From NCBI GenBank assembly GCA_903834925.1, contig CAILLA010000304.1:1-64000 (forward strand): a stretch of 64,000 nucleotides of DNA, given 5' to 3'. Numbering within the stretch: position 1 is the first letter of the stretch; each line of letters begins with the position of its first letter. Below the pieces are notes generated by a model. It saw nothing but the letters and a program-made list of their open reading frames with translations, searched no databases and was not told the origin of the DNA. Origin of the DNA: an uncultured Schlesneria sp. (GTDB lineage Bacteria; Planctomycetota; Planctomycetia; Planctomycetales; Planctomycetaceae). The position numbers were made by a program, and so were the translations under genes. Below, piece by piece: positions 2,664 through 62,169 of the stretch.

Positions 2664-5648
2664 ATGAAGTGGATGCAATGGATCGCAGGGTGGTTTGGGA
2701 GTGCGACAAAGTCCATCGGTTCGCTCGGTGTCGGCCTGCGAGCAGCACTCGGCAGTGGTTCGCCGGGTGGTTGGGCTTCGGACCATCGCGAAGAAACCTT
2801 TCACAATACGGGTTTCAATTATATCGCGATCCATGCGATCGCCTCACAGGTGGCAGGCGCGACAGTGACTGTCTTTGCTGATGCGGACCAGCAGGCGCTG
2901 CGACAATCCAAGCGGAAGTCGCTGGCGGTTCGAGCTGGTTCCTTTACAAGATGGAAATCAATTTATGGAGCGGATGATCGCGAGACTGATCCGTTGCCGA
3001 CGACTCATCCGTTGGTTCGCCTGTTAAAGCGTCCGAACCCGTACGAAAGTGGTGCCAGTTTTCGATATCGGCAGGCTCAACAGATACGGCTGACCGGGAC
3101 GTGCCTGATCTGGAACGTCCCGAGCGTATCAGGGCCAGCGTGTGAACGGTACGTGATTCCCACTGCGATGGCCTCGCCAGTCGCTCCGACGGAGGAGCTT
3201 CCCCGAGGGGGCTGGCGGATCAACCCGGTCGCCTCGCGTTACACACCGATTGTCGACGATGGGTTTATTGATTGTCCCAGTTGGTATCGCATTCTCGGTC
3301 AGATTGTCGATGCGCGACAGGTGCAGGTGATTCGGCTTCCTCATGCCTGGTACCTGGATGATGGGCAAAGTCCGTTGTCGGCGGGAGCCAAATGGGTCGA
3401 TGCAGGTGAAGCGGTGGATGAGGCTCGGTATCACCAGTTGAGAAACGGCGTTGATCCATCAATCGTCTGGAACCTTCCGCCGGATGTTTCGCCCGATCAG
3501 AACGAGATCGACCGGATGCAGGCGAAGATCAGTGCCAAGTATGGCGGACCTGAAAATGTGGGCCGGGTGATGCTGGCTCAAAGCGGTACATCGATCACGC
3601 CACTCAGCACTAGTCCCAAGGAGATGTGTTACACGGAAGGTTTTCACGATTTCAAAGCGGCGGTACTGGCGCTGCATCAGACGCCCCCTGTGGCCGTTGG
3701 TTTGCAGGAGCCGGGGGCTTATGCGGCTTACAACGCGAGCATGAAAGCCTGGCGTCATGCGGCTGTTCAACCACTTTGTGATCTGTTGGCAGAGTCGGAT
3801 ACCGAGCATCTAGCACCGCAGTTTGGCGCTGGCCTGACGGTCGAGATAGAGTCTGACACAATTGATGACACCGAATTGATAGAGAAGCAGTTACAGAATG
3901 ATCTGGCAGCGAAGGTTCGGACTAGGAACGAATGGCGAGCGGTTCGCGGCATGCCTCCGTTGCCCGGCAAGTTAGGTGATGAGCTGGTGGGAAGCGACAG
4001 TGGATCTTCGACCGGCAATCCGACTGCGAACGGTCCGGTGCCTGATCCCGCGAACGAGAATGCTAATCCCCGCCACATGCAAAGCGGCGGGTCGAATGAA
4101 CCCGCAGATTCAAGTAGCAAAGCGGACTTTGGGCTGTTGGATGTCATTCAGCAAAACACAGGTGACGAAAGGCGATCGGTCGATCAGCGGTTCGAAAGTC
4201 GGGCTTATCCAGATCGCGATTCTGAAAATCAAAACCCAACATGGCATACGAACAAAAACTACGAGGATGTAGTTCGTGCCAGACTGATCGGCGAGATGCT
4301 TTACGGCTGGTTTGGAAAAACTTCGCCGTCGCGGCTCGATCCAGATGGCACGTCGGTCAAGAAAACGTTTGATGAGGATAAGCATAAGCGTGACGAGAGG
4401 GGGCGATTTGCGAGGGAAGCCGTTGCCAGGATTTTGAAAAGCCCACCGGGTACTGATACACCCGAAAAAGTCGCCGAGCATCTTTCGTATCTTTCGACGC
4501 AGGACCTCGAAGAACTGCATCGCGAACACGGAATCACTTCGATCCCAAGTACTCGCGAACATTTGGAACGAAGCGTCTTGGCGAGGGTCATTACTTTTCC
4601 TCATTCCAAGAATCGCACATTTTTGAGTCCCACGGGATCACACGAGATTTCGGTACACGTCCAGAATCAAGAGGAATGCAATCGGCGATTGCCACCACCG
4701 CCCAACGGTGAAACGCGGCCGCTATTGACCCAGAAACAGTGGGCGAATCTTGTGGGTGCTCAACCAGGTGCGGTGGTACATGTCTTTCCAACAGGCTTGA
4801 AGGGGATTGAAATTTTCGTCGATCACCCTGACTACTTGGGCAGACGCAAGCTGAGGTCTGACCTTACAATTTCCAACGATTTCATGATTGTTGAGCCCAG
4901 TAAGCAGAAGCAGGGGATTGCAGCGCGGGCCATTTCACAGCAAGTCGAAACGGCGACAGATCTGGGATACAAATTCATTGAAGCAGGGGCGGCGGGCAAG
5001 GGAACTAAAGTTCGTGCGGATGAAGAGAACTGGGAGATTCAGGGGCTGACTGATCCCGCCGGGTACTACACGTGGGCACGTCTTGGATTTAATGCGCCGC
5101 TCGATCAACTGATGAACGAGCGAGCCGATTCTCATTTACCTGAACTGCAAAAGATCGCGGCCAACTTTAAAAAGAAATTCGGTCGCAAGGAGAACGGCGT
5201 TGATGTGACGGTCACCGTCGCGGATTTGATGGAGACAGTAGAGGGTCGGGACTGGTGGAAGAAATTCGGTGGTTACTTCGAGGGCAAATTCGATCTGAGC
5301 GAAAATAGTTTGTCTCGTCGAGTTCTTACGAAATACCTGGCCGAAAAGGGGATCGAAATCCGCAAGAAGTCGCTGGCGGTTTCGGAACATGATCAATGGA
5401 GCATTTTCAAAGATTCATCTGCTGGGCTTGAAAACGGTCTACCGCTCAATGACGACAGTGAAGGCGATCGTTCAGAATTTGACTGGCAGCATGATAAAAA
5501 CATTCATTGCGAAAACTTCGATGTCCTCACGGCGGAAGACGAAGCGATTTTGGATCGGATCTGGGATGCCATTGGCCGTGAAAAGGGCGAGAACGACGAC
5601 GACGTTAATGATCAAGATGAACACGCAGGTGCCGACACTCAGCCCTGA
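2664..5648 (+). CDS. Phage portal protein with GNAT-like C-terminal extension
   Basis: Residues about 30-430 look like a tailed-phage portal protein (PF04860-like), with the typical early HPLVRLLKRPNPYESG and an RLTGTCLIWNV segment; portals form the ring through which DNA enters the capsid. At 994 residues it is about twice the usual size. After a low-complexity linker (about 430-480) comes a motif EDKHKRDERGRF (about 573-584), of a type often seen in extended phage head proteins, then a region whose QGIAARAISQQVETA helix and GYYTWARLGF motif resemble a GNAT acetyltransferase fold. The tail is acidic. An upstream AGGTG about 7 nt before ATG supports the start. Portal identity is fairly sure; the GNAT call is inference from motif similarity. 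Confidence 0.8.
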   Translation: MKWMQWIAGWFGSATKSIGSLGVGLRAALGSGSPGGWASDHREETFHNTGFNYIAIHAIASQVAGATVTVFADADQQALRQSKRKSLAVRAGSFTRWKSIYGADDRETDPLPTTHPLVRLLKRPNPYESGASFRYRQAQQIRLTGTCLIWNVPSVSGPACERYVIPTAMASPVAPTEELPRGGWRINPVASRYTPIVDDGFIDCPSWYRILGQIVDARQVQVIRLPHAWYLDDGQSPLSAGAKWVDAGEAVDEARYHQLRNGVDPSIVWNLPPDVSPDQNEIDRMQAKISAKYGGPENVGRVMLAQSGTSITPLSTSPKEMCYTEGFHDFKAAVLALHQTPPVAVGLQEPGAYAAYNASMKAWRHAAVQPLCDLLAESDTEHLAPQFGAGLTVEIESDTIDDTELIEKQLQNDLAAKVRTRNEWRAVRGMPPLPGKLGDELVGSDSGSSTGNPTANGPVPDPANENANPRHMQSGGSNEPADSSSKADFGLLDVIQQNTGDERRSVDQRFESRAYPDRDSENQNPTWHTNKNYEDVVRARLIGEMLYGWFGKTSPSRLDPDGTSVKKTFDEDKHKRDERGRFAREAVARILKSPPGTDTPEKVAEHLSYLSTQDLEELHREHGITSIPSTREHLERSVLARVITFPHSKNRTFLSPTGSHEISVHVQNQEECNRRLPPPPNGETRPLLTQKQWANLVGAQPGAVVHVFPTGLKGIEIFVDHPDYLGRRKLRSDLTISNDFMIVEPSKQKQGIAARAISQQVETATDLGYKFIEAGAAGKGTKVRADEENWEIQGLTDPAGYYTWARLGFNAPLDQLMNERADSHLPELQKIAANFKKKFGRKENGVDVTVTVADLMETVEGRDWWKKFGGYFEGKFDLSENSLSRRVLTKYLAEKGIEIRKKSLAVSEHDQWSIFKDSSAGLENGLPLNDDSEGDRSEFDWQHDKNIHCENFDVLTAEDEAILDRIWDAIGREKGENDDDVNDQDEHAGADTQP

Positions 5649-31003: not shown

Positions 31004-31102
31004 AATTTGGAATATGTTGTGCGACCTCCTTGTAAAATTGAAAGAATCACATAGCATTAATGTTGTGGCGGCGCCGAGCGCAATCTCGTTTCTCGGCCAC
31101 AC

Positions 31103-31209
31103 CGGAAAACTCAATAAATAGCAAATCGGCACACGCCGGGGGGCTGGTTAGTAAGTAAGCCGACGCAATGGTATACCTCAAGGTGTTCTGATGCGTCGGC
31201 TTTTTTTTT
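31103..31209 (+). promoter_or_regulatory. Attenuator-like leader RNA element, copy 1
   Basis: Begins CGGAAAACT, then AATAGCAAA, a CGGC/GCCG hairpin, then GGCTGGTTAGTAAGTAAGCC, in which GGC could pair with the GCC of the terminator 5' arm. The terminator stem AAGCCGACGC/GCGTCGGCTT (31157-31166 with 31193-31202) is followed by nine T. The gene upstream is on the opposite strand, so this is a 5' leader of the gene at 31289, not a gene-end terminator. The ligand or signal is unknown. Confidence 0.75.
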
Positions 31210-31288
31210 CGCCATGTGTTGGCGAACAGCAGTCAGAAGCGGATTTTCCGCTCTGTGTGTTTCGGACTTTTGAATGGAGATGATTACG

Positions 31289-32047
31289 ATGCGTAGTTTA
31301 ATGACAGGCTTCTGCAAGTTGCAGAACAAGGTTGCTGTGGCGCTAGCCAGCGTGAATATCAGAAGGGCGACAGGTTTGCTGGCGGTTGGCGGCATCATGG
31401 CGATGGCTCCAGTGTTTGCCAAAGATTCGGACGAGAAGGAGGGAAAGGCGAACGGTAAGGAATCAGCGGTCAAAGTCCCAAATCATGAGATCGTTGCGAT
31501 TCCGGAATGCCTGGAAAAACTGAAACTTTCTGCGCAACAGGAAGAACAGATCAAGGGAATCATCGGTAATTACGATCATTCGATCGCGATGGTTTGGAAG
31601 CAATTCGGCAGCCGGTATATGCAGACAATTGATTTGGAATCGCAATTGCTGGCATCGATTGAGGACAATCTGACAGAACCTCAACGTCAACAAATCAGAA
31701 GCCAACGGCTTAAGACGGCCAAATATGAAAAGGCAGTGCAGGCCACAAACACAGCTCCCAATCAGGCCGCAGACAAGCCCGTCAACGCGCTCGACGAAGC
31801 GCATGAAGGGGGCGGAGTGACACTCACCTCGGAACAGGAAGAGGCGGCCGATAAAGTCGAAGCGAAATACCGTTCACAATTACGCTCGATGAATCGCGAC
31901 ATTGAAGGGATGCATGCGCGCATGCTTTCTCTTTCAGCTTCCAAGATGGTGGAGATCGAAAAGGTGCTTACCAAAGACCAGCTGACGGAACTGCGAGCCC
32001 ATCGAAAGAGCGCACCGGTCGCAAAGCTGGTGGTCAACAAAGACTAG
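31289..32047 (+). CDS. Spy/LTXXQ-like periplasmic protein with two helical repeats
   Basis: Secreted protein with an N-terminal hydrophobic segment ending AMAPVFAKD. Two related helical regions follow: KLKLSAQQEEQIKGII with LTEPQRQQIRSQR (about residues 77-150) and VTLTSEQEEAADKVEAKY with LTKDQLTELRAHR (about 178-240). Both resemble the LTxxQ motifs of Spy/CpxP envelope-stress chaperones, though similarity is weak. An Ala/Asn/Pro-rich linker joins them. GGAGA lies 9 nt before the ATG at 31289, whereas the earlier ATG at 31274 has none. It is preceded by an attenuator-like leader, as are other stress genes here. Confidence 0.65.
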   Translation: MRSLMTGFCKLQNKVAVALASVNIRRATGLLAVGGIMAMAPVFAKDSDEKEGKANGKESAVKVPNHEIVAIPECLEKLKLSAQQEEQIKGIIGNYDHSIAMVWKQFGSRYMQTIDLESQLLASIEDNLTEPQRQQIRSQRLKTAKYEKAVQATNTAPNQAADKPVNALDEAHEGGGVTLTSEQEEAADKVEAKYRSQLRSMNRDIEGMHARMLSLSASKMVEIEKVLTKDQLTELRAHRKSAPVAKLVVNKD

Positions 32048-32548: not shown

Positions 32549-32899
32549 ATGATGAAACAACGACTTTGTTTAATGATGCTGTTCCTCGGCATGCTTGTCG
32601 TGACTGCAAGCGAGAGTCATGCGTACGGTCCGTATTACAACGGATATGGGCGAGTTGGCCCTGGCGTTCGCCGATATTACGGTTATGGAAATGGCCGGTA
32701 TGACAACGTTTACGGTCCAAGAAGGTTAAACGCATATGGCTATTCCAACTATGGAAACGGCCCGTACGGCAATGTTTATATCGGCAACGGCTATGGTAAT
32801 GGATACGGAAATGGCTACGTTGGCTATGGAAATGATTACAACTATGGAAATGGATTTGTCTACCAGGGCCCCTTAGGATTCGGGCTTTCCATATTCTAA
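32549..32899 (+). CDS. Small secreted Gly/Tyr/Asn-rich protein
   Basis: A signal peptide (MMKQRLCLMMLFLGMLVV, cleavage probably after SHA) precedes about 90 residues made almost entirely of Gly, Tyr and Asn in imperfect GYGNGYGN-type repeats, ending in a hydrophobic GFGLSIF. Such composition is typical of surface or matrix proteins, or of proteins that phase-separate or bind metal; no family is recognised. AAAAGG about 6 nt before the ATG at 32549 supports this start over the frame opening at 32510. The 3' end overlaps the proposed leader element of the Mg ATPase gene. Confidence 0.6.
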   Translation: MMKQRLCLMMLFLGMLVVTASESHAYGPYYNGYGRVGPGVRRYYGYGNGRYDNVYGPRRLNAYGYSNYGNGPYGNVYIGNGYGNGYGNGYVGYGNDYNYGNGFVYQGPLGFGLSIF

Positions 32900-32995
32900 A
32901 ATAAGCGAATACGCCTTGGCGACACGACAACGATACCATAAACGAAGCCGATGTGTCCGAATGCCCTCGAAGGTGTTCTGACATATCGGCTTTTT
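32881..32995 (+). promoter_or_regulatory. Attenuator-like leader RNA element, copy 2 (degenerate 5' part)
   Basis: The terminator hairpin AAGCCGATGTG...CATATCGGCTT plus T5 is almost identical over 50 nt to copy 3 at 37301-37365, including GAATGCCCTC and AAGGTGTTCTGACA. Upstream, AATAAGCGAA and a CGCC/GGCG hairpin match only weakly. Because it starts right at the 3' end of the preceding gene, a simple terminator role cannot be excluded. It ends 37 nt before the MgtA-type gene. Confidence 0.6.
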
Positions 32996-33032
32996 CCGTC
33001 GCAAGACCTTCCTTTCCGCCGTTTGGAACAAA

Positions 33033-35690
33033 ATGTCGCAAATAAAAGTGTCTACGGCGCCAACACAAAAAGTGACTACAGTACCCACGCAAGTATCAAA
33101 AACGTTGATTGATTCGGCGACGATGGAGATTGAATCCGTCCTGACGAAATTGTCGACGCGACGCGAAGGATTGACCAGCGAGGATGCTCGCTCCCGAAGT
33201 GCAAAGTATGGGCTGAATGAGTTGGCAAAAGATCAGCAAACGAGTCTTGTCATACTGCTCTGGCGCGCGGTTCTTAACCCGCTGGTGATCCTTCTGGCGG
33301 TGTTGGCGATCATCTCGTTCGCCACCGGTGACCCGCGGGCTGCCATCATGATTTCGCTGATGCTCGCGACGAGTGTCGGTCTGAAGCTGATCCAGGAAGC
33401 CAGGGCGGGACGTGCGGCGGCAAAGTTAAAAGCCATGATCTCGGTCACCGCCACCGTGACCCGTGACGGCAAATCTCAGGAAATCGCCGTCTCTCAACTG
33501 GTTCCCGGTGACATCATCCAGCTGGCGGCAGGGGATATGATCCCTGCCGATGTGCGCATTGTGACGGCAAAGGATCTGTTCGTCACGCAAAGCTCACTCA
33601 CGGGTGAGAGCCTGCCTGTCGAGAAGTTCGAGGTGGTGAAGGATGTAGCGACAACCGCGTCGATCGACCTGCCGAACATCGCCTTCCTCGGTACAAGCGT
33701 CGAAAGCGGATCGGCGACGGCAGTTGTCGTGACTACCGGTAAAGACACTTATCTGGGCGGCATGGCCCGTTCGCTGTCAGAGGTGCCTCAAGAAACAGCT
33801 TTTGACAAGGGGATTGCTCAATTCACCTGGTTGATGCTTCGATTTATTCTGATCATGGTCCCTCTGGTCTTCCTGATTAACGTCTTAACTAAGGGCAACT
33901 GGGTTGAAGCCTTTTTCTTCGCAGTTGCGGTGGCCGTGGGTCTGACGCCCGATATGTTGCCGATGATCGTGACGGTGTGTCTCTCAAAAGGGGCGCTGGA
34001 AATGAGCCGCAAGAAGGTGATCGTCAAAAGGATTAATGCGATTCAGAACCTGGGTGCGATGGATGTGCTCTGCACCGACAAGACCGGCACGTTAACGATG
34101 GATCGCGTGATCCTGGAAAGACACTGTGATGTTGAGTTGAAAGAGGACGATGGCGTGCTCGCGCTAGCCTATATGAACAGTCATTTCCAGACAGGCTTGA
34201 AGAACGTCCTGGATCGCGCGGTGCTCGCCCATACTGACGTCCACACTCATGCGAAGATCCCCGAATATGCAAAAGTGGACGAGATTCCTTTTGACTTCCA
34301 GCGTCGCATCATGTCTGTCGTCGTCCGTACGCCTGAAGGCAAAGACCGGATTATCAGCAAGGGAGCACCAGAAGAGATCTTCCCACGCTGTGCGAACTTC
34401 GCGCTCGCTGGCAAACTCAACCCGATGGATCACCCACATATCGAACAGCTGAAGAAAGAATACGAGACACTTTCCTCCGATGGCTTCCGCGTCCTGGCAA
34501 TTGCCAGTAAAGACGTTGAGCCGCGAGGTGCCGTCGTGGGGGACTCGACGCCGTATTCCAAGGAGGACGAGCGCGACCTGATTCTGAACGGCTATGTTGC
34601 CTTCCTGGACCCACCAAAGGAAACGGCTGCTGCGGCGATCAAAGCTCTGCAAAGCCACGGCGTGTCGGTCAAAGTTGTTACCGGTGATAACGATCTGGTG
34701 GCACGTAAGATCTGCAAAGAGGTCGGTCTCGACACTACGGTCATGTTGCTTGGCAGTGATGTTGAGAAGATGTCTGACACGCAACTTGCCGATGCCTCTG
34801 AACGCGCAACGCTTTTCGCGCGGGTCACTCCTGCTCACAAGCAACGGATCATCAAGGCCCTGCAGTCTCGTAAGCACACAGTGGGGTTCATGGGGGACGG
34901 TATCAATGACGCTCCCGCGCTACACGTGGCGGATGTCGGAATCAGCGTCGATACGGCCGTGGATGTTGCCAAAGAATCGGCCGATATGATTCTGCTGGAA
35001 AAATCGCTGATGGTGCTGGAAGCGGGCGTTGTCGAAGGGCGAAAGGTTTTTGCCAACATTCTCAAGTATGTTCGCATGGGTGCCAGCAGCAACTTCGGCA
35101 ACATGTTCAGCGTTCTCGGAGCAAGTGTTTTCGTCCCCTTTTTACCAATGGCCCCGATCCAGATCCTGGCCAATAACCTGCTGTATGATATCGGCCAGAC
35201 GACCATTCCGACCGATGATGTCGACCCCGAGCAAGTCGAAAAGCCACGCCCCTGGGACATCAAACAACTGACACGTTTCATTGTTTTCATTGGCCCGTGC
35301 TCCTCAATCTTCGACTACACGACATACTTTATGATGCTTTATGTCTTTCAGTGCTGGAACGTTTCCACTCCCGAGGCAGCGGCTCGCAGCGCGAGCCTCT
35401 TTCAGACCGGCTGGTTTGTTGAGAGTTTGCTGACACAGACACTGATCATTCACATTATCCGCACCAACAAAATTCCGTTTCTACAAAGTCGAGCATCCTT
35501 GCCAATGATGGTCATGTCCGTCGTGATCATGGTGACGGGTATCGCCATTCCCTTCACGTCTCTGGGAAGTTCGCTGGGTTTTATGCCCTTGCCGTCTTTG
35601 TATTGGCCGCTATTGGCGATCACGCTCGTGTGTTATGCAGTTCTGACGCAGTTGGTCAAAATGTGGCTGCTGAAGCGACGATGGATCTGA
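33033..35690 (+). CDS. mgtA: MgtA/MgtB-type magnesium-transporting P-type ATPase
   Basis: P3-type ATPase importing Mg2+ across the cytoplasmic membrane. The phosphorylated Asp is D349 in LCTDKTGTLT, preceded by the MgtA-typical NLGAMDV and followed by ALAYMNSHFQTGLKN, a family signature. The actuator loop LTGES (about residues 189-193), hinge GDGINDAPAL and the C-terminal SNFGNMFSVLGAS membrane block with DDVDPE are all present. The 885-residue length is normal. The ATG at 33033 has only a weak GGA upstream. The gene is preceded by one of the attenuator-like leaders, reminiscent of, but unrelated in sequence to, the known regulatory leaders of enteric mgtA. Confidence 0.93.
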   Translation: MSQIKVSTAPTQKVTTVPTQVSKTLIDSATMEIESVLTKLSTRREGLTSEDARSRSAKYGLNELAKDQQTSLVILLWRAVLNPLVILLAVLAIISFATGDPRAAIMISLMLATSVGLKLIQEARAGRAAAKLKAMISVTATVTRDGKSQEIAVSQLVPGDIIQLAAGDMIPADVRIVTAKDLFVTQSSLTGESLPVEKFEVVKDVATTASIDLPNIAFLGTSVESGSATAVVVTTGKDTYLGGMARSLSEVPQETAFDKGIAQFTWLMLRFILIMVPLVFLINVLTKGNWVEAFFFAVAVAVGLTPDMLPMIVTVCLSKGALEMSRKKVIVKRINAIQNLGAMDVLCTDKTGTLTMDRVILERHCDVELKEDDGVLALAYMNSHFQTGLKNVLDRAVLAHTDVHTHAKIPEYAKVDEIPFDFQRRIMSVVVRTPEGKDRIISKGAPEEIFPRCANFALAGKLNPMDHPHIEQLKKEYETLSSDGFRVLAIASKDVEPRGAVVGDSTPYSKEDERDLILNGYVAFLDPPKETAAAAIKALQSHGVSVKVVTGDNDLVARKICKEVGLDTTVMLLGSDVEKMSDTQLADASERATLFARVTPAHKQRIIKALQSRKHTVGFMGDGINDAPALHVADVGISVDTAVDVAKESADMILLEKSLMVLEAGVVEGRKVFANILKYVRMGASSNFGNMFSVLGASVFVPFLPMAPIQILANNLLYDIGQTTIPTDDVDPEQVEKPRPWDIKQLTRFIVFIGPCSSIFDYTTYFMMLYVFQCWNVSTPEAAARSASLFQTGWFVESLLTQTLIIHIIRTNKIPFLQSRASLPMMVMSVVIMVTGIAIPFTSLGSSLGFMPLPSLYWPLLAITLVCYAVLTQLVKMWLLKRRWI

Positions 35691-37260: not shown

Positions 37261-37365
37261 CGGATGACTATCTAAAGAGCAAGCTGGCTGTTCCAGCAGG
37301 CTCGTTAAAGAGTAAGCCGATGTGCCCGAATGCCCTCCAAGGTGTTCTGACACGTCGGCTTTTTT
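37261..37365 (+). promoter_or_regulatory. Attenuator-like leader RNA element, copy 3
   Basis: CGGATGACT, then AAAGAGCAA, a GCTGG/CCAGC hairpin, then GGCTCGTTAAAGAGTAAGCC, in which GGC/GCC and TTA/TAA can pair as an alternative to the terminator. The terminator stem AAGCCGATGTG/CACGTCGGCTT is followed by six T. It lies 30 nt before the tandem universal stress protein gene and about 130 nt after the previous gene. Confidence 0.75.
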
Positions 37366-37395
37366 CGTGCGCTTCGAGAACTTAGAGGATACCTC

Positions 37396-38415
37396 ATGAC
37401 GCTTTATGACAATTGCAAGACCGGTTACCGAGCGATTCTCGTTGCGACGGATTTTTCAAGGTATTCCAAAGCGGCTCTTCAGCAAGCCGTGTGGATGGCA
37501 CGTCGCGACGGAGCAAAGATCACCTTGGCACACACGTTGCCGAATCTGCGCAGCCTTGTGGAAACGGCTTCGTATCAAGGCAAAGCGGACTTCCTGTATG
37601 GCGAGGGAACGGCATTCCGTCGTGAAGTCCAACAGGAATCCGAAGCCAGGATGCGGCAATTGATTGCCGACGTGAATGCCACGAGCCGCGAAGTCGAAAT
37701 CGTGACAATGATCGGAATACCGTATTTGCAGCTGACGCGTCTGGTCCAGCAAAGCCGATTCGATCTCGTTCTGGCCGGAACGCGTGGAATGGCGAACTGG
37801 GAACAATTCTTTGTGGGTAGCACTTCAAAACGCCTGATCCGAGATTGCCCGGCATCTGTCTGGATCGTCAAGGGAGAAGATGTGAAACCGCCGAATGCAG
37901 TCCTTGCTGCAACGGACTTTTCCGACGCAAGCCGCAAAGCGGTGTTGGAGGGACTACGGATTGCCAACCAGGCTTCCGCAGATTTTCACCTTGTCCACGT
38001 CATCGATTCGATGGATGTGGCCGAAGAGATTTTCAGCAAGATTCCGGATGGAGGATCTCTTCGGCGCGAGATCAACGAAGAAGCCACGCGCCGATTGGAC
38101 ACGTTTGTTAAATCCCTGCATATCAATCGTGAAAGTATCAAACAGCATTTGACCTTTGGAACACCCTGGCAAGAAGTGGGTCGTCTCGCAAAGCATTTGA
38201 AGGTCGACCTGATCGTGATGGGGACGATCGGACGGAGCGGAATCAAGGGAATGCTGCTCGGCAACACAGCAGAAAAGATTTTGGACACCTGTGATTGCAG
38301 CATCCTGACGGTGAAGCCAGAGGATTTCGTATCACCGATCTTGCCGGGATTTGGGCCGCTTTATCCGGATCAGAATGGTGATGTTTCAAATGTGAAATCG
38401 ACGGAAGAGACGTGA
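37396..38415 (+). CDS. Tandem universal stress protein (UspA-like)
   Basis: Two Usp domains in one chain (about residues 10-155 and 165-315). Each begins with an ILVATDFS or VLAATDFS strand. The nucleotide-binding glycine motif is seen as GTRGMANWEQFFVGSTSKRL and, in the second half, GTIGRSGIKGMLLGNTAEKIL. ATP-binding Usp proteins help cells survive starvation, oxidative or membrane stress. GAGGATACCTC before the ATG is a good ribosome binding site. It is the closest gene to leader element 3 and is followed by a terminator-like hairpin and a P-type ATPase gene. Confidence 0.9.
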   Translation: MTLYDNCKTGYRAILVATDFSRYSKAALQQAVWMARRDGAKITLAHTLPNLRSLVETASYQGKADFLYGEGTAFRREVQQESEARMRQLIADVNATSREVEIVTMIGIPYLQLTRLVQQSRFDLVLAGTRGMANWEQFFVGSTSKRLIRDCPASVWIVKGEDVKPPNAVLAATDFSDASRKAVLEGLRIANQASADFHLVHVIDSMDVAEEIFSKIPDGGSLRREINEEATRRLDTFVKSLHINRESIKQHLTFGTPWQEVGRLAKHLKVDLIVMGTIGRSGIKGMLLGNTAEKILDTCDCSILTVKPEDFVSPILPGFGPLYPDQNGDVSNVKSTEET

Positions 38416-51815: not shown

Positions 51816-51922
51816 CGGAAGACAAACGAACGGTCGCCATCATTTGACGGGGCCGGTCAGGCAGAAAAAGTAAGCCGACTACCTGGAGCTTTTCAAAAGA
51901 AATTCCAGGTGGTCGGCTTTTT
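51816..51922 (+). promoter_or_regulatory. Attenuator-like leader RNA element, copy 4
   Basis: Begins CGGAAGACAAACGAACGG and ends with a 16-bp terminator stem (AAGCCGAC, T-G pair, ACCTGGA) and T5. Upstream GTCAGGC can pair with GCCGAC of the terminator 5' arm, with one bulged A. The neighbouring upstream gene is divergent, so this is a 5' leader. It lies about 130 nt before the P-type ATPase gene at 52051. Confidence 0.75.
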
Positions 51923-52050
51923 GCATTGAATACAGTGATTCCGTACGTGAATTATCCATGATTGTTGAGCCGGCGATGTGGGTTGTTGTGAATAACTGTC
52001 GATCGATTAATTCGGTGACATGTGGCAAATGATTTCGGGGTGTGATTCGA

Positions 52051-54603
52051 ATGGCAGAGAACGTGATCAGTAACGATGACTTGAGCGGTCTTTCGGAACA
52101 AGATGTTTCACAGAGATTGCAGAAATACGGTTACAACGAGCTTCCCTCATCAAAAGGGCGCAGTGTTTTTGCAACAGCTTGGGATGTGGTTCGCGAGCCG
52201 ATGTTTCTATTACTGCTGGCCTGTGGCACGATCTACCTGATCCTGGGTGATGTGCAGGAAGCATTGATGCTGCTCGGTTTTGTCTTCGTCGTATTGGGGA
52301 TCACGCTTTACCAGGAGCGAAAGACCGAGCGAGCGCTGGAAGCGCTGCGTGATCTTTCCAGTCCGCGAGCGCTGGTGATCCGTGGTGGTGAAAGAAAACG
52401 TATTGCAGGCCGAGAAGTCGTTCCCGATGACCTGGTGGTTCTGGCGGAGGGAGACCGAGTCCCCGCCGATTCAGTCATTCTTTCGTGTACCAACCTTTCC
52501 ACCGACGAGTCGCTTCTCACGGGCGAATCCGTACCGGTTCGAAAGATCGTTTGGGATGGCGTTCGAGAGATGACTCGGCCCGGTGGCGAAGACCTTCCCT
52601 TCGTTTTTTCGGGTACGTTGATTGTCCAAGGTCAGGGAATTGCAAAAGTCCGTTCGACTGGCCTGCACACGGAAATGGGAAACATCGGCAAGGCCCTGCA
52701 AACCGTACCTGTCGAAGGAACCCGGCTTCAGAAAGAAGTCGGGCAACTGGTCCAGCGCATCGCCATCGTTGGTTTGACTTTGTGCCTCACCGTCATCGTT
52801 GTTTACGGCGTCACACGCGGTAACTGGTTACAAGGATTCCTCGCCGGGATCACTCTTGCGATGGCATTGTTGCCTGAAGAGTTTCCCGTCGTGCTGACCA
52901 TCTTCCTTGCCTTGGGGGCATGGCGATTGTCGAAAATGAATGTGTTAGCCCGCCGTGTGCCGGTGATCGAAACTCTCGGCTCGGCGACCGTTCTTTGCGT
53001 GGATAAGACGGGCACGCTTACCGTGAATCGGATGTCGATCCGCAAGCTGTCCGTTGATGGAATTGTTCATGATGTTGAACAACAGACTGGCGTGGTATTG
53101 CCGGAAACGCTGCATGAGATCGTTGAGTTCGGCATTCTGGCAAGCCAGCGTGACCCGTTCGACCCGATGGAGAAAGCGTTCCATGATCTCGGCAATTTGC
53201 GTCTTGCGGAAACGGAACATCTGCATGCGGATTGGACACTGGAGCGAGAGTATTCGCTATCGCCAGAACTTCTCGCCATGTCACACGTCTGGAAATCGCC
53301 GACCGGTAATGACTTCGTTCTGGCAACGAAAGGTGCTCCTGAAGCCATCGTTGACCTATGCCACTTAGATAAGGAACGGGCAAAAGCGGTGAGTGACCAA
53401 GTGGCCAAGATGGCCGAAGATGGACTTCGCGTCCTGGGAGTCGCCAAGGGGGTGTTCGGGAAACAGCCATTGCCGGGTGAGCAGCATGATTTCACGTTTG
53501 AGTTTCTTGGCCTTGTTGGTTTGGCTGATCCGGTACGTCCCACCGTTCCGGCTGCGGTTGAGGAGTGCTACACCGCTGGAATTCGTGTGGTGATGATTAC
53601 GGGGGATCACCCTACGACGGCACGAAGCATTGCCATGCAGGCGGGAATCAAACCGCTGGATCAGATCATCACCGGTGCTGAACTGGACAAGATTGACGAA
53701 GCTGAGTTGCAGCGACGAGTTCGAACCATCAATGTGTTTGCTCGCATGGTCCCGGAACAAAAGCTCCGTCTGGTGAACGCACTGAAAGCCAACGGCGAAG
53801 TCGTGGCGATGACCGGGGATGGAGTGAATGACGCACCCGCTTTGAAAGCGGCTCATATTGGAATCGCGATGGGCGGTCGAGGAACGGATGTGGCCCGTGA
53901 AGCCGCCTCGTTGGTCTTGCTCGACGATGATTTCGCATCGATCGTGAAGTCGGTTCGCATGGGAAGGCGAATTTTCGACCATCTTCAAAAAGCCATGACC
54001 TACATTGTGGCTGTGCATGTGCCCATTGCCGGGATGTCCCTTGTGCCGGTTCTGCTGGGTGGAGATCCCGTGCTTTTGCCCGTTCATATACTGTTTCTGG
54101 AACTGATTATTGACCCCGCTTGTTCGGTCGTATTTGAAGCCGAACCGGAAGAAGAAAATGTGATGCGCCGTCCGCCGCGAAATCCCGCCACACCGCTGTT
54201 CGGTCCCCGCATTCTTGGTATTGGATTACTCCAGGGTGCGAGTGCATTACTGGTTGTGCTGGCCATTTACCTGTCTTCATTGTGGGGCTGGCTCAATAAA
54301 TCGGACGCCATTGCATTGAGTTTTACGACGCTTGTCATTGCCAATCTCGGATTGATCTTCGCGAATCGTTCCTGGACACGTACCATCTGGTCAACAATTC
54401 GGACGCCAAATGCGGCACTCTGGTGGGTCATCGGCGGAACGACTTTCTTCCTCAGCCTTGCGCTTTATGTGCCATTCATACGTCACATGTTTCATTTCTC
54501 AACGCTTCATCCCAACGACTTGGCGCTTTGTCTGGCAGGAGGATTGTTAAGCATTCTCTGGTTTGAAAGTTTGAAGTTATTCAAGCAGAAGTGGTGGACA
54601 TGA
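52051..54603 (+). CDS. Ca2+-type cation-transporting P-type ATPase
   Basis: P2-type ATPase with a short N-terminal cation ATPase domain (LSEQDVSQRLQKYGYNELP), actuator LTGES, the membrane-4 motif LLPEEFPVVLTIF, phosphorylation site LCVDKTGTLTVNRMS, and hinge MTGDGVNDAPALKAAHIG with GGRGTDVAREAA. The PEEFPV motif and length fit Ca2+- or proton/cation-translocating bacterial ATPases. It lacks heavy-metal-binding CxxC domains. The ATG at 52051 is preceded by GGGGTG at 8 nt and is preferred to a GTG nine bases upstream. It is controlled by leader element 4 and followed by a terminator. Confidence 0.88.
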   Translation: MAENVISNDDLSGLSEQDVSQRLQKYGYNELPSSKGRSVFATAWDVVREPMFLLLLACGTIYLILGDVQEALMLLGFVFVVLGITLYQERKTERALEALRDLSSPRALVIRGGERKRIAGREVVPDDLVVLAEGDRVPADSVILSCTNLSTDESLLTGESVPVRKIVWDGVREMTRPGGEDLPFVFSGTLIVQGQGIAKVRSTGLHTEMGNIGKALQTVPVEGTRLQKEVGQLVQRIAIVGLTLCLTVIVVYGVTRGNWLQGFLAGITLAMALLPEEFPVVLTIFLALGAWRLSKMNVLARRVPVIETLGSATVLCVDKTGTLTVNRMSIRKLSVDGIVHDVEQQTGVVLPETLHEIVEFGILASQRDPFDPMEKAFHDLGNLRLAETEHLHADWTLEREYSLSPELLAMSHVWKSPTGNDFVLATKGAPEAIVDLCHLDKERAKAVSDQVAKMAEDGLRVLGVAKGVFGKQPLPGEQHDFTFEFLGLVGLADPVRPTVPAAVEECYTAGIRVVMITGDHPTTARSIAMQAGIKPLDQIITGAELDKIDEAELQRRVRTINVFARMVPEQKLRLVNALKANGEVVAMTGDGVNDAPALKAAHIGIAMGGRGTDVAREAASLVLLDDDFASIVKSVRMGRRIFDHLQKAMTYIVAVHVPIAGMSLVPVLLGGDPVLLPVHILFLELIIDPACSVVFEAEPEEENVMRRPPRNPATPLFGPRILGIGLLQGASALLVVLAIYLSSLWGWLNKSDAIALSFTTLVIANLGLIFANRSWTRTIWSTIRTPNAALWWVIGGTTFFLSLALYVPFIRHMFHFSTLHPNDLALCLAGGLLSILWFESLKLFKQKWWT

Positions 54604-60280: not shown

Positions 60281-60383
60281 CGGAAAACTGGATAAAAAGC
60301 AGCCCGGCTCGGTTCGGGAGGCTGGTTAGTAAGTAAGCCGACGCGATGGAATACCTTTGGTATTCTGCTGCGTCGGCTTTTTT
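60281..60383 (+). promoter_or_regulatory. Attenuator-like leader RNA element, copy 6
   Basis: CGGAAAACT, then AAAAAGCAG, a CCCG/CGGG hairpin, then GGCTGGTTAGTAAGTAAGCC identical to copy 1, and a terminator stem AAGCCGACGC/GCGTCGGCTT with T6. The alternative pairing GGC/GCC plus TTA/TAA is conserved. It lies 125 nt before the DUF3309 gene and 210 nt after the DUF1573 gene. Confidence 0.78.
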
Positions 60384-60508
60384 CGTTTTTCCGGTCTCGT
60401 GCATCGCGTTGATAGTCACCGTTTCCGGTACTTCCACTCATTCTGGAAGGATACGGTCGTCTGTCTGGTTTCGTCATTCTCGGGAAAAAAGAAAAAAGGA
60501 AAACGGAA

Positions 60509-60664
60509 ATGCTCGGTACAATTCTGCTCGTGATTTTGATTCTGATGCTTCTTGGTTCAGTCCCTACGTGGAATCACAGCAGGAACTGGGGTTACGGCCC
60601 TAGCGGTGGGCTGGGGACAATTTTTGTGATCCTGCTCATTCTGGTACTGCTTGGCAAAGTCTGA
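60509..60664 (+). CDS. DUF3309 small hydrophobic protein
   Basis: A 51-residue protein, two hydrophobic helices around a conserved centre: MLGTILLVILILMLLGSVPT, then WNHSRNWGYGPSGGLG, then a second leucine/isoleucine-rich helix ending LGKV. This matches the DUF3309 family of tiny membrane proteins seen near general-stress genes in many bacteria. An AAAAGGAAAACGGA purine stretch precedes the ATG at good spacing. It is controlled by leader element 6. Confidence 0.88.
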   Translation: MLGTILLVILILMLLGSVPTWNHSRNWGYGPSGGLGTIFVILLILVLLGKV

Positions 60665-61159: not shown

Positions 61160-62026
61160 CAAAGGACAATCGTCGTTTTTCGACTGGCGGAGACGTACTG
61201 GTTTCTCAGTAAAAATAGACCTGCGATCCCCGATGCGAGAAGTACGATGGAACTCGGTTCCGGGACTGGAGTCGAGCCTGTCGGGACGACATGGCCAAGA
61301 CTGTCATACGTCAGTCCGCCGCTCAGCGTGCCGTAGTCAGGGGGGGAGAAAACTGTGAGATTGTGTTGGAGTCCATTGTCACGGCGCCAGTTTCGGCCAA
61401 GGCTCTGCCGTTATCAATCGTGGCGCCCGTGTTGAGTGTGATGCTGTCGGCGGCCAGCAGATTTCCCTCAAACGCAGTGGTTGACCCGAGCGTTGCTGAA
61501 CTGCCAACCTTCCAGAATAATCCGTTATCGGTTCCTCCGTGCGAGCCGACATTGATCATATTGACCGATGCAGCACTTGCGGTCGTCAGAGTACTTCCGA
61601 TTTGAAACACCCAGAACGCATCGTTTTTACCCTGCGCATCCAGAGTGAGCGCCCCCGTCAACTGAGCCGAACTATCAAACGTATAGACGCCTGAAGTGAG
61701 TGTCAGACCGCCAGGTTTTGTCCGGTCAGGTTTTGACTCGAGGACATCGCCTGCAGGCCGTTGTAAGCCTTCGTGACGTCGCTTTGGGCCTGTAGTGCAG
61801 CGGCATCACTGTAGTGGTAAGTTCCTGTGAGCGAGATGGACCCAGTGCCCGTAATCGCACTGCCAGGCGAGACACCCACGTTGCCAGTGATTGAAGTTGG
61901 GCCGGTATTGGTCACCGTCGAACCTCCAAGAACCGAGAAGTTCTCGGCCGTGGAAAGGATTCCTGCTGTGGCGGGTGGGGCCAAGGCCGAGAACGCCACA
62001 AGTGGGATCAAGTACGCAAATCGCAT
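61160..62026 (-). pseudogene. Frameshifted DUF3494 (ice-binding-like) PEP-CTERM protein
   Basis: Three reading-frame pieces form one protein. Piece 1 (from ATG at 62026, AGGAGA upstream) has a signal peptide and ENFSVLGGSTVTNTGPTS to SQNLTGQNL, the DUF3494 start. It ends at a TGA at 61703; adding one base near 61707-61713 continues as GLTLTSGVYTFDSSAQLTGA. Piece 2 has FQIGSTLTTASAASV, SSATLGSTTAFEGNLLA and ITLNTGATI. It ends after a G7 run (plus strand 61340-61346); one more base restores the frame to TPVPEPSSIVLL, a PEP-CTERM signal, and the end at 61160. Two -1 shifts inactivate it, unless they are sequencing errors. Confidence 0.8.
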
Positions 62027-62060
62027 TTCGAAGTCTCCTGGAAAAGTCGTCAAACTCAAT

Positions 62061-62169
62061 AAAAAAACCGACGTGGCTTAACACCTTGAAAATGGTGTCT
62101 CGCCACGTCGGTTTACGCCTCACCAAGCAAGCCGGACAATCCGGGTTGCTCATTGAAAGTTGTCTTCCG
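62061..62169 (-). promoter_or_regulatory. Attenuator-like leader RNA element, copy 5 (minus strand)
   Basis: On the minus strand: CGGAAGACAA, then AATGAGCAA, a CCGG/CCGG hairpin, CTTGGTGAGGCGTAAACCG and a terminator AAACCGACGTGGC/GCCACGTCGGTTT with T7. The G of AAGCC is A here, the terminator partner changes to GGTTT, and the upstream partner becomes TTGGT, so all three strands covary. The gene on the other side is divergent, so the element is the leader of the DUF3494 gene. Confidence 0.75.

Follow-up and report, generated by a model that had tools for sequence, protein, structure and literature searches.

Background

The leaders of ANTAR regulators (AmiR, EutV, NasR) are built of two small adjacent hairpins with conserved hexanucleotide loops, and the ANTAR precedent extends to receiver-type regulators. 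RAT sites of the BglG/SacY/LicT type are about 30 nt in length, with asymmetric loops and a consensus of their own. In one published account, ANTAR proteins furnish the precedent for regulators with RNA-binding output domains (PMC3369931). The MpsC/YbcI proteins (DUF2294) of Staphylococcus and Bacillus, which belong to the same PF10057 family as the candidate regulator considered below, are known from a dispensable gene adjoining the bicarbonate transporter MpsAB (PMC6689103). Deleting mpsC leaves the growth of S. aureus unchanged, and MpsAB functions without it (PMC6689103); hence, the Pfam name MpsC does not settle the role of the family.

The element described here shares with the ANTAR leaders an antiterminator and a terminator that are mutually exclusive, as well as the use of several leaders per regulon, and its candidate regulator likewise joins an output domain to a receiver. 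It differs in that a single long hairpin is formed, whose internal loops are symmetric and purine-rich and whose terminal loop is variable, and the candidate regulator matches Response_reg and MpsC in Pfam, with no match to the ANTAR domain. As in RAT sites, the hairpin of the element is imperfect, contains internal loops and shares sequence with the 5' arm of the terminator; however, it is longer (about 60 nt), has a GGAWGAC/GUAAGCC core in place of the RAT consensus, occurs in 1-31 copies per genome and has no link to sugar uptake. BglG-type regulators, with their CAT and PRD domains, are not among the frequent neighbors of the elements. The targets (BON, Usp, KaiC, PAS kinases and ion pumps) are similar to those of the SigB, RpoS and EcfG general stress regulons, but control by the element would be exerted by leader RNA once transcription has started, instead of by an alternative sigma factor. 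No Rfam 15 family matched at or above the gathering threshold, with chance matches alone found over the elements (E near 1). An identity with a riboswitch, a T-box or any other leader listed in Rfam was therefore rejected, in agreement with the sequence-only reading, in which no known class had been recognized. A search of the literature on planctomycete attenuators and RNA motifs found no earlier description of the element in the papers covered.

Elements in the window and their distribution

The window, i.e. the whole stretch of 64,000 nucleotides that was analyzed, comes from an uncultured Schlesneria species. The sequence-only reading had described six elements of like build in it. Five of these are intact, scoring 61-106 bits with E-values of 1e-10 to 1e-22 in a covariance-model search of the 9-Mb genome, with a model (R1) that was built partly from the window elements themselves and that also recovered about 20 further copies from the same genome. 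The remaining one, placed at 32881-32995, looks like a degenerate copy, as it has neither CGGA box nor antiterminator hairpin and the terminator half alone matches (Table 1).

Table 1. Elements of the window, parts of the copy at 31103, and the genes that follow
Feature	Position	Strand	Evidence or remark
Intact attenuator element (antiterminator hairpin and intrinsic terminator)	31103-31207	+	105.7 bits, model R1
5' box CGGAAAAC, 5' strand of antiterminator base	31103-31110	+	pairs with 31155-31162
Upper hairpin P1 (AGC/GCU and C/G-rich stem, variable loop)	31119-31149	+	strongest covariation, l0-r1 z 19
Switch segment GUAAGCCG, 3' strand of antiterminator base and 5' arm of terminator	31155-31162	+	sequence, covariation, folding
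Intrinsic terminator hairpin AAGCCGACGC...GCGTCGGCTT and T-run	31157-31209	+	c10-c20 covary with t2-t12, z 6-16; folding
257-aa gene downstream of 31103 element	31274-32047	+	no Pfam match
Apparent degenerate copy, terminator half alone, no CGGA box	32881-32997	+	30 bits with R1; sequence
P-type cation ATPase downstream of degenerate copy	33033-35690	+	
Intact element	37261-37366	+	94.1 bits, R1
Tandem universal stress protein (Usp) gene after 37261 element	37396-38415	+	
Divergent yet intact element	51816-51924	+	61.2 bits, R1
P-type cation ATPase after 51816 element	52042-54603	+	
Intact element	60281-60384	+	105.3 bits, R1
Small ORF after 60281 element, DUF3309-like by the name given in the sequence-only reading	60509-60664	+	direct sequence reading
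Intact element	62060-62169	-	72.8 bits, R1
Ice-binding-like (DUF3494) gene, in two ORFs	61323-62059	-	downstream of 62060 element

The six window stretches were aligned and used as the seed for finding further copies. A DNA search matched 14 places in the same genome, and R1, with 105 positions from 16 copies, found about 28 sense copies there. The expectation that related genomes would hold further copies was borne out: the element was found in 14 of 40 relatives, at one to about 30 matches per genome and with several sister species lacking it, and in 12 of 392 genomes spread over Planctomycetota at an E-value of 1e-6 (R1). A second model, R2, which covers just the hairpin, recovered nearly the same twelve of the 392. 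A pattern scan of one genome per species, covering about 85,000 bacterial and archaeal species, gave at least 112 stretches; among the matches listed, the titles are planctomycete (Pirellulaceae, Schlesneria, Isosphaeraceae, Phycisphaerae, Kuenenia) except for one plain 'bacterium'. The element recurs patchily across Planctomycetota.

Just outside the window, at 82-95 kb of its own contig (L010, contig C304), six further elements lie within 13 kb, and this cluster suggests that the window is part of a stress-gene island.

Structure and covariation

Altogether 180 distinct copies were collected, 170 of which (about 85 effective) could be aligned by landmarks, and mutual information with APC background correction was computed on these 170. 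It recovers the upper hairpin P1 (z up to 19) and the terminator (z up to 16); in addition, an unforeseen outer helix emerges (M1-k9 5.6, M7-k3 4.7, M5-k5 4.2), along with a G.A/A.G swap at B6-c3 in the lowest internal loop. On this evidence the 5' 60 nt constitute one long imperfect hairpin, CGG[AWG]ACU[nnn]UAA..[AGC][AR]CCCGG...CCGGG[RG]GCU..GUU[nnn]AGU[AAG]CCG, in which symmetric internal loops are regularly spaced along the elongated stem and the terminal loop is variable. In the structure so named 93.9% of cells are paired, whereas shuffles reach 83.6% and slid versions no more than 44%; its covariation is 0.368 versus 0.170 (0/500), and CGG/CCG is paired in 99.7%.

The layout given by the sequence-only reading, namely box, AGCA, short hairpin, GUAAGCC segment and terminator, was correct. 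The short hairpin is indeed present, but it is longer than claimed, extending via UAA/GUU and ACU/AGU to CGG/CCG. For AGCCG two alternative pairings indeed exist, the upstream partner being the CGG of the 5' box, reached via the long hairpin, and not GGCU. The GGCU-AGCC pairing was rejected, since the covariation of GGCU is with the AGC box that precedes it (l0-r1, l1-r2, l2-r3); in copies such as L012:149 (AGUU...AAGCC) this pairing is impossible.

The last three pairs of the hairpin use the CCG of GUAAGCCGAC, which also serves as the 5' arm of the terminator, itself ending in GUCGGCUUUU. Because both structures need this CCG, the antiterminator and the terminator exclude each other, and the same dual use explains why AAGCCGAC and GUCGGCUU hardly vary. 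Within the main alignment there is little variation in the CGG/CCG helix, and some divergent copies (L218, L221) have lost its outermost pair. Three tandem copies from a low-GC planctomycete and the copy of the clostridium Acetoanaerobium show a joint shift of the three strands to UUGG/CCAA/UUGG, in which B1-c8 becomes U-A together with the terminator arm. Mutual exclusion of the two structures is thus strongly supported by sequence comparison. The median folding energies are -21.8 kcal/mol for the antiterminator and -32.9 kcal/mol for the terminator, and since these predicted values favor the terminator they suggest a default-off switch. Two mutually exclusive structures with one segment in common, the later of them being a terminator with a T-run, are what defines an attenuator, and we regard it as near certain from the aligned copies that this attenuator family is real.

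One subgroup of copies has an extra hairpin, about 38 nt long and of the GUUG...CAAC type, between the promoter and the CGGA box, for instance at 31055-31102 of the window and in L047, L048 and L060; it was kept out of the model as it is not universal, although present in many copies.

Leader position and the predicted regulon

The genes downstream of the elements are co-directional in 134 cases versus 24 convergent ones, and those upstream have the same direction in 93 cases versus 63 divergent ones. Promoter-like -10 hexamers concentrate 46-72 nt upstream, where the peak bins hold about 40 as compared with an expectation of 15. The promoter evidence is this enrichment pooled over copies, in place of a single-copy site; a strict sigma-70 site, sought in a promoter scan at the window copy 31103, was not found. 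Many divergent element pairs occur and tandem copies recur. Going by these features, the elements appear to lie between a promoter and a co-directional gene, i.e. in the position of a leader, and the transcription-attenuator layout proposed earlier is upheld by covariation, folding and the strong bias among the downstream genes. Tandem elements in series are found in L242 (1093-1419, three nearly identical), L111 (6195-6423) and L168 (7204-7426).

Among 119 downstream ORFs, Pfam domains include PAS (7), MpsC (6), BON (5), Response_reg (5), ice-binding (3), P-type ATPase (3), OmpA (3) and KaiC (2), besides others. The regulated set would comprise stress, signaling and transport genes, with 'stress' deduced from the gene families. 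That the copies define a regulon, as had been proposed, is supported by the many further ones standing ahead of stress, signaling and ion-transport families. Within the window, Pfam recovered the Usp, the two P-type ATPase and the ice-binding DUF3494 genes after the copies, and did not confirm the 'Spy-like' name given to the gene following the 31103 element. The two DUF3494 ORFs match profile positions 1-93 and 113-207, pointing to a frameshift or an assembly error.

Association with MpsC/DUF2294 proteins

An all-versus-all comparison of the ORFs near the elements showed MpsC/DUF2294 (PF10057) to be the commonest neighbor family, with at least 25 loci; PAS kinases are the sole other family approaching this frequency. 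In low-copy genomes the element typically has a divergent mpsC-A on one side and is followed by mpsC-B on the other (mpsC-A <- -> element - mpsC-B). MpsC is present in 10 of 12 element genomes versus 29 of 392 overall (Fisher p 6e-11, ignoring shared ancestry) and in 11 of 14 element-bearing relatives versus 13 of 40 relatives (p 1e-5, likewise ignoring it), these p-values being descriptive as relatives are not independent. As controls, the regulon families KaiC and BON are present in all 40 relatives.

MpsC is fused behind a CheY-type receiver domain in ten genomes checked. Such a fusion is encoded by 8 of 8 genomes with nine or more element copies, and none of the 14 genomes without it has more than four; two fusion genomes, one of them a fragmented assembly, carry just three copies. 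Genomes without MpsC hold 1-4 copies, and in five genomes with the element (G010, G011, G020, G071, G255) MpsC was not detected. Conversely, several MpsC genomes are without a confident element, and several of these have weak R1 matches just 3' of mpsC. As R1 includes a terminator, only those weak matches with a GGAAGAC box were counted (L218, L221, L242). At L181 (2227-3162) a ferritin-like domain is fused to an MpsC domain.

The candidate regulator scores above the Pfam cut-off for MpsC/DUF2294. Its AlphaFold2 model is a confident one of an alpha-beta type with the order H-E-E-H-H-E-E (pLDDT 90), a sequence search of the PDB found no relative, and a fold search of the PDB with the predicted model gave no clear match; no relative with a known function emerged clearly by either route. 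The pI is near neutral (median about 6.5), and nine K/R positions hardly vary among the MpsC proteins linked to elements. Given the lack of a PDB relative, of a clear fold match and of a basic pI, the protein itself does not show RNA binding, a capacity that we infer from genomic context. A literature search for an RNA element or a regulatory role of DUF2294/MpsC found no description in the papers covered.

Beyond Planctomycetota, Acetoanaerobium noterae has an mpsC gene, the element within a few bases of it, and then an MFS transporter. This element, detected with R2 at E 0.02 in 125 kb at the one expected place, is of the same design, with the UUGG/CCAA/UUGG changes, and lies 3' of the clostridial mpsC. 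The DUF2294 genes of Anoxybacillus, Alicyclobacillus and Priestia adjoin a bicarbonate permease (in Anoxybacillus) or fdhF, and the intervening gap contains a terminator; possible competing hairpins in these gaps were judged by eye, left out of the count and serve as leads only. This Bacillota sample comprises a handful of plasmid-collection records and one filed under a Staphylococcus phage. At L268 (2870-3021) and L269 (2122-2485), Bacillota DUF2294 genes beside the formate dehydrogenase gene fdhF come with terminators and possible competing hairpins.

A candidate antitermination mechanism and its alternatives

We consider it probable that the element is a cis-acting transcription attenuator of 5' leaders, with MpsC/DUF2294 as the best candidate for the antitermination factor. 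In an unaided leader the stronger terminator would win, leaving the gene off. The long hairpin would be stabilized by a factor recognizing its conserved internal loops (AWG/AAG, AR/RG), and the polymerase could then read through. MpsC is the best candidate for this factor because it is the commonest neighbor, co-occurs with the element, is fused to receivers where regulons are large and is paired with the element in a clostridium; as the trans-acting factor it is the best single hypothesis, with odds that we put at even or slightly better. The receiver fusion further suggests that receiver-MpsC may be a phosphorylation-controlled antiterminator that turns on the stress regulon, with a logic like that of receiver-ANTAR proteins.

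Alternatively, the hairpin might be the aptamer of a new riboswitch, with a small molecule or ion (a second messenger, bicarbonate or a cation) stabilizing the antiterminator and the MpsC genes being merely targets or responding to the same signal. Its purine-rich internal loops are compact and highly conserved, up to about 30 copies stand ahead of unrelated genes, as with second-messenger riboswitches, P-type ATPases and the Anoxybacillus bicarbonate permease beside DUF2294 would fit an ion or bicarbonate signal, and MpsC is absent from five element genomes. We nevertheless hold a riboswitch to be unlikely: the hairpin is simple and unbranched, with no junction or pseudoknot in the covariation map, and neither the receiver-MpsC fusions tracking large regulons nor the element 3' of the clostridial mpsC would be explained. 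The persistence of elements in genomes without detectable MpsC, and the lack of a recognizable RNA-binding fold in MpsC, are also consistent with another RNA-binding protein as the antiterminator and MpsC as just a conserved target or signaling partner. Yet apart from PAS kinases no neighbor family comes near the frequency of MpsC, and the few copies in genomes without MpsC speak against such a protein, which we judge quite improbable.

It is also conceivable that the elements just end upstream transcripts, or are independent small RNA genes, leaving the next gene uncontrolled, as every element ends in a strong intrinsic terminator and some upstream genes are co-directional. The 134:24 ratio of downstream genes, the divergent element pairs, the promoter-like hexamers that the elements have of their own, and the joint changes of 5' box, switch segment and terminator arm make this very improbable.

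Returning to MpsC as the antitermination factor, we give an even chance to the wider proposal that MpsC/DUF2294 proteins are unrecognized RNA-binding antiterminators, sometimes driven by receiver phosphorylation, which recognize the GGAWGAC...GUAAGCC hairpin and run a planctomycete general-stress regulon, with Bacillota relatives controlling carbon and transport genes. If true, Planctomycetota would own a dedicated RNA-based stress regulon of up to about 30 leaders, with a member list at hand; DUF2294/MpsC, a widespread protein whose Staphylococcus member has no known phenotype, would gain a function; and receiver-MpsC would be a further case, besides ANTAR, of two-component signaling through RNA. 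One protein and one 60-nt RNA would be enough for a direct test.

Possible mobility of the element-mpsC module

A contig of the IMG/VR viral collection (L263) has the element at 2759-2819, followed by its own mpsC gene at 3007-3387; given this contig, the element-mpsC module may travel on planctomycete phage or prophage.
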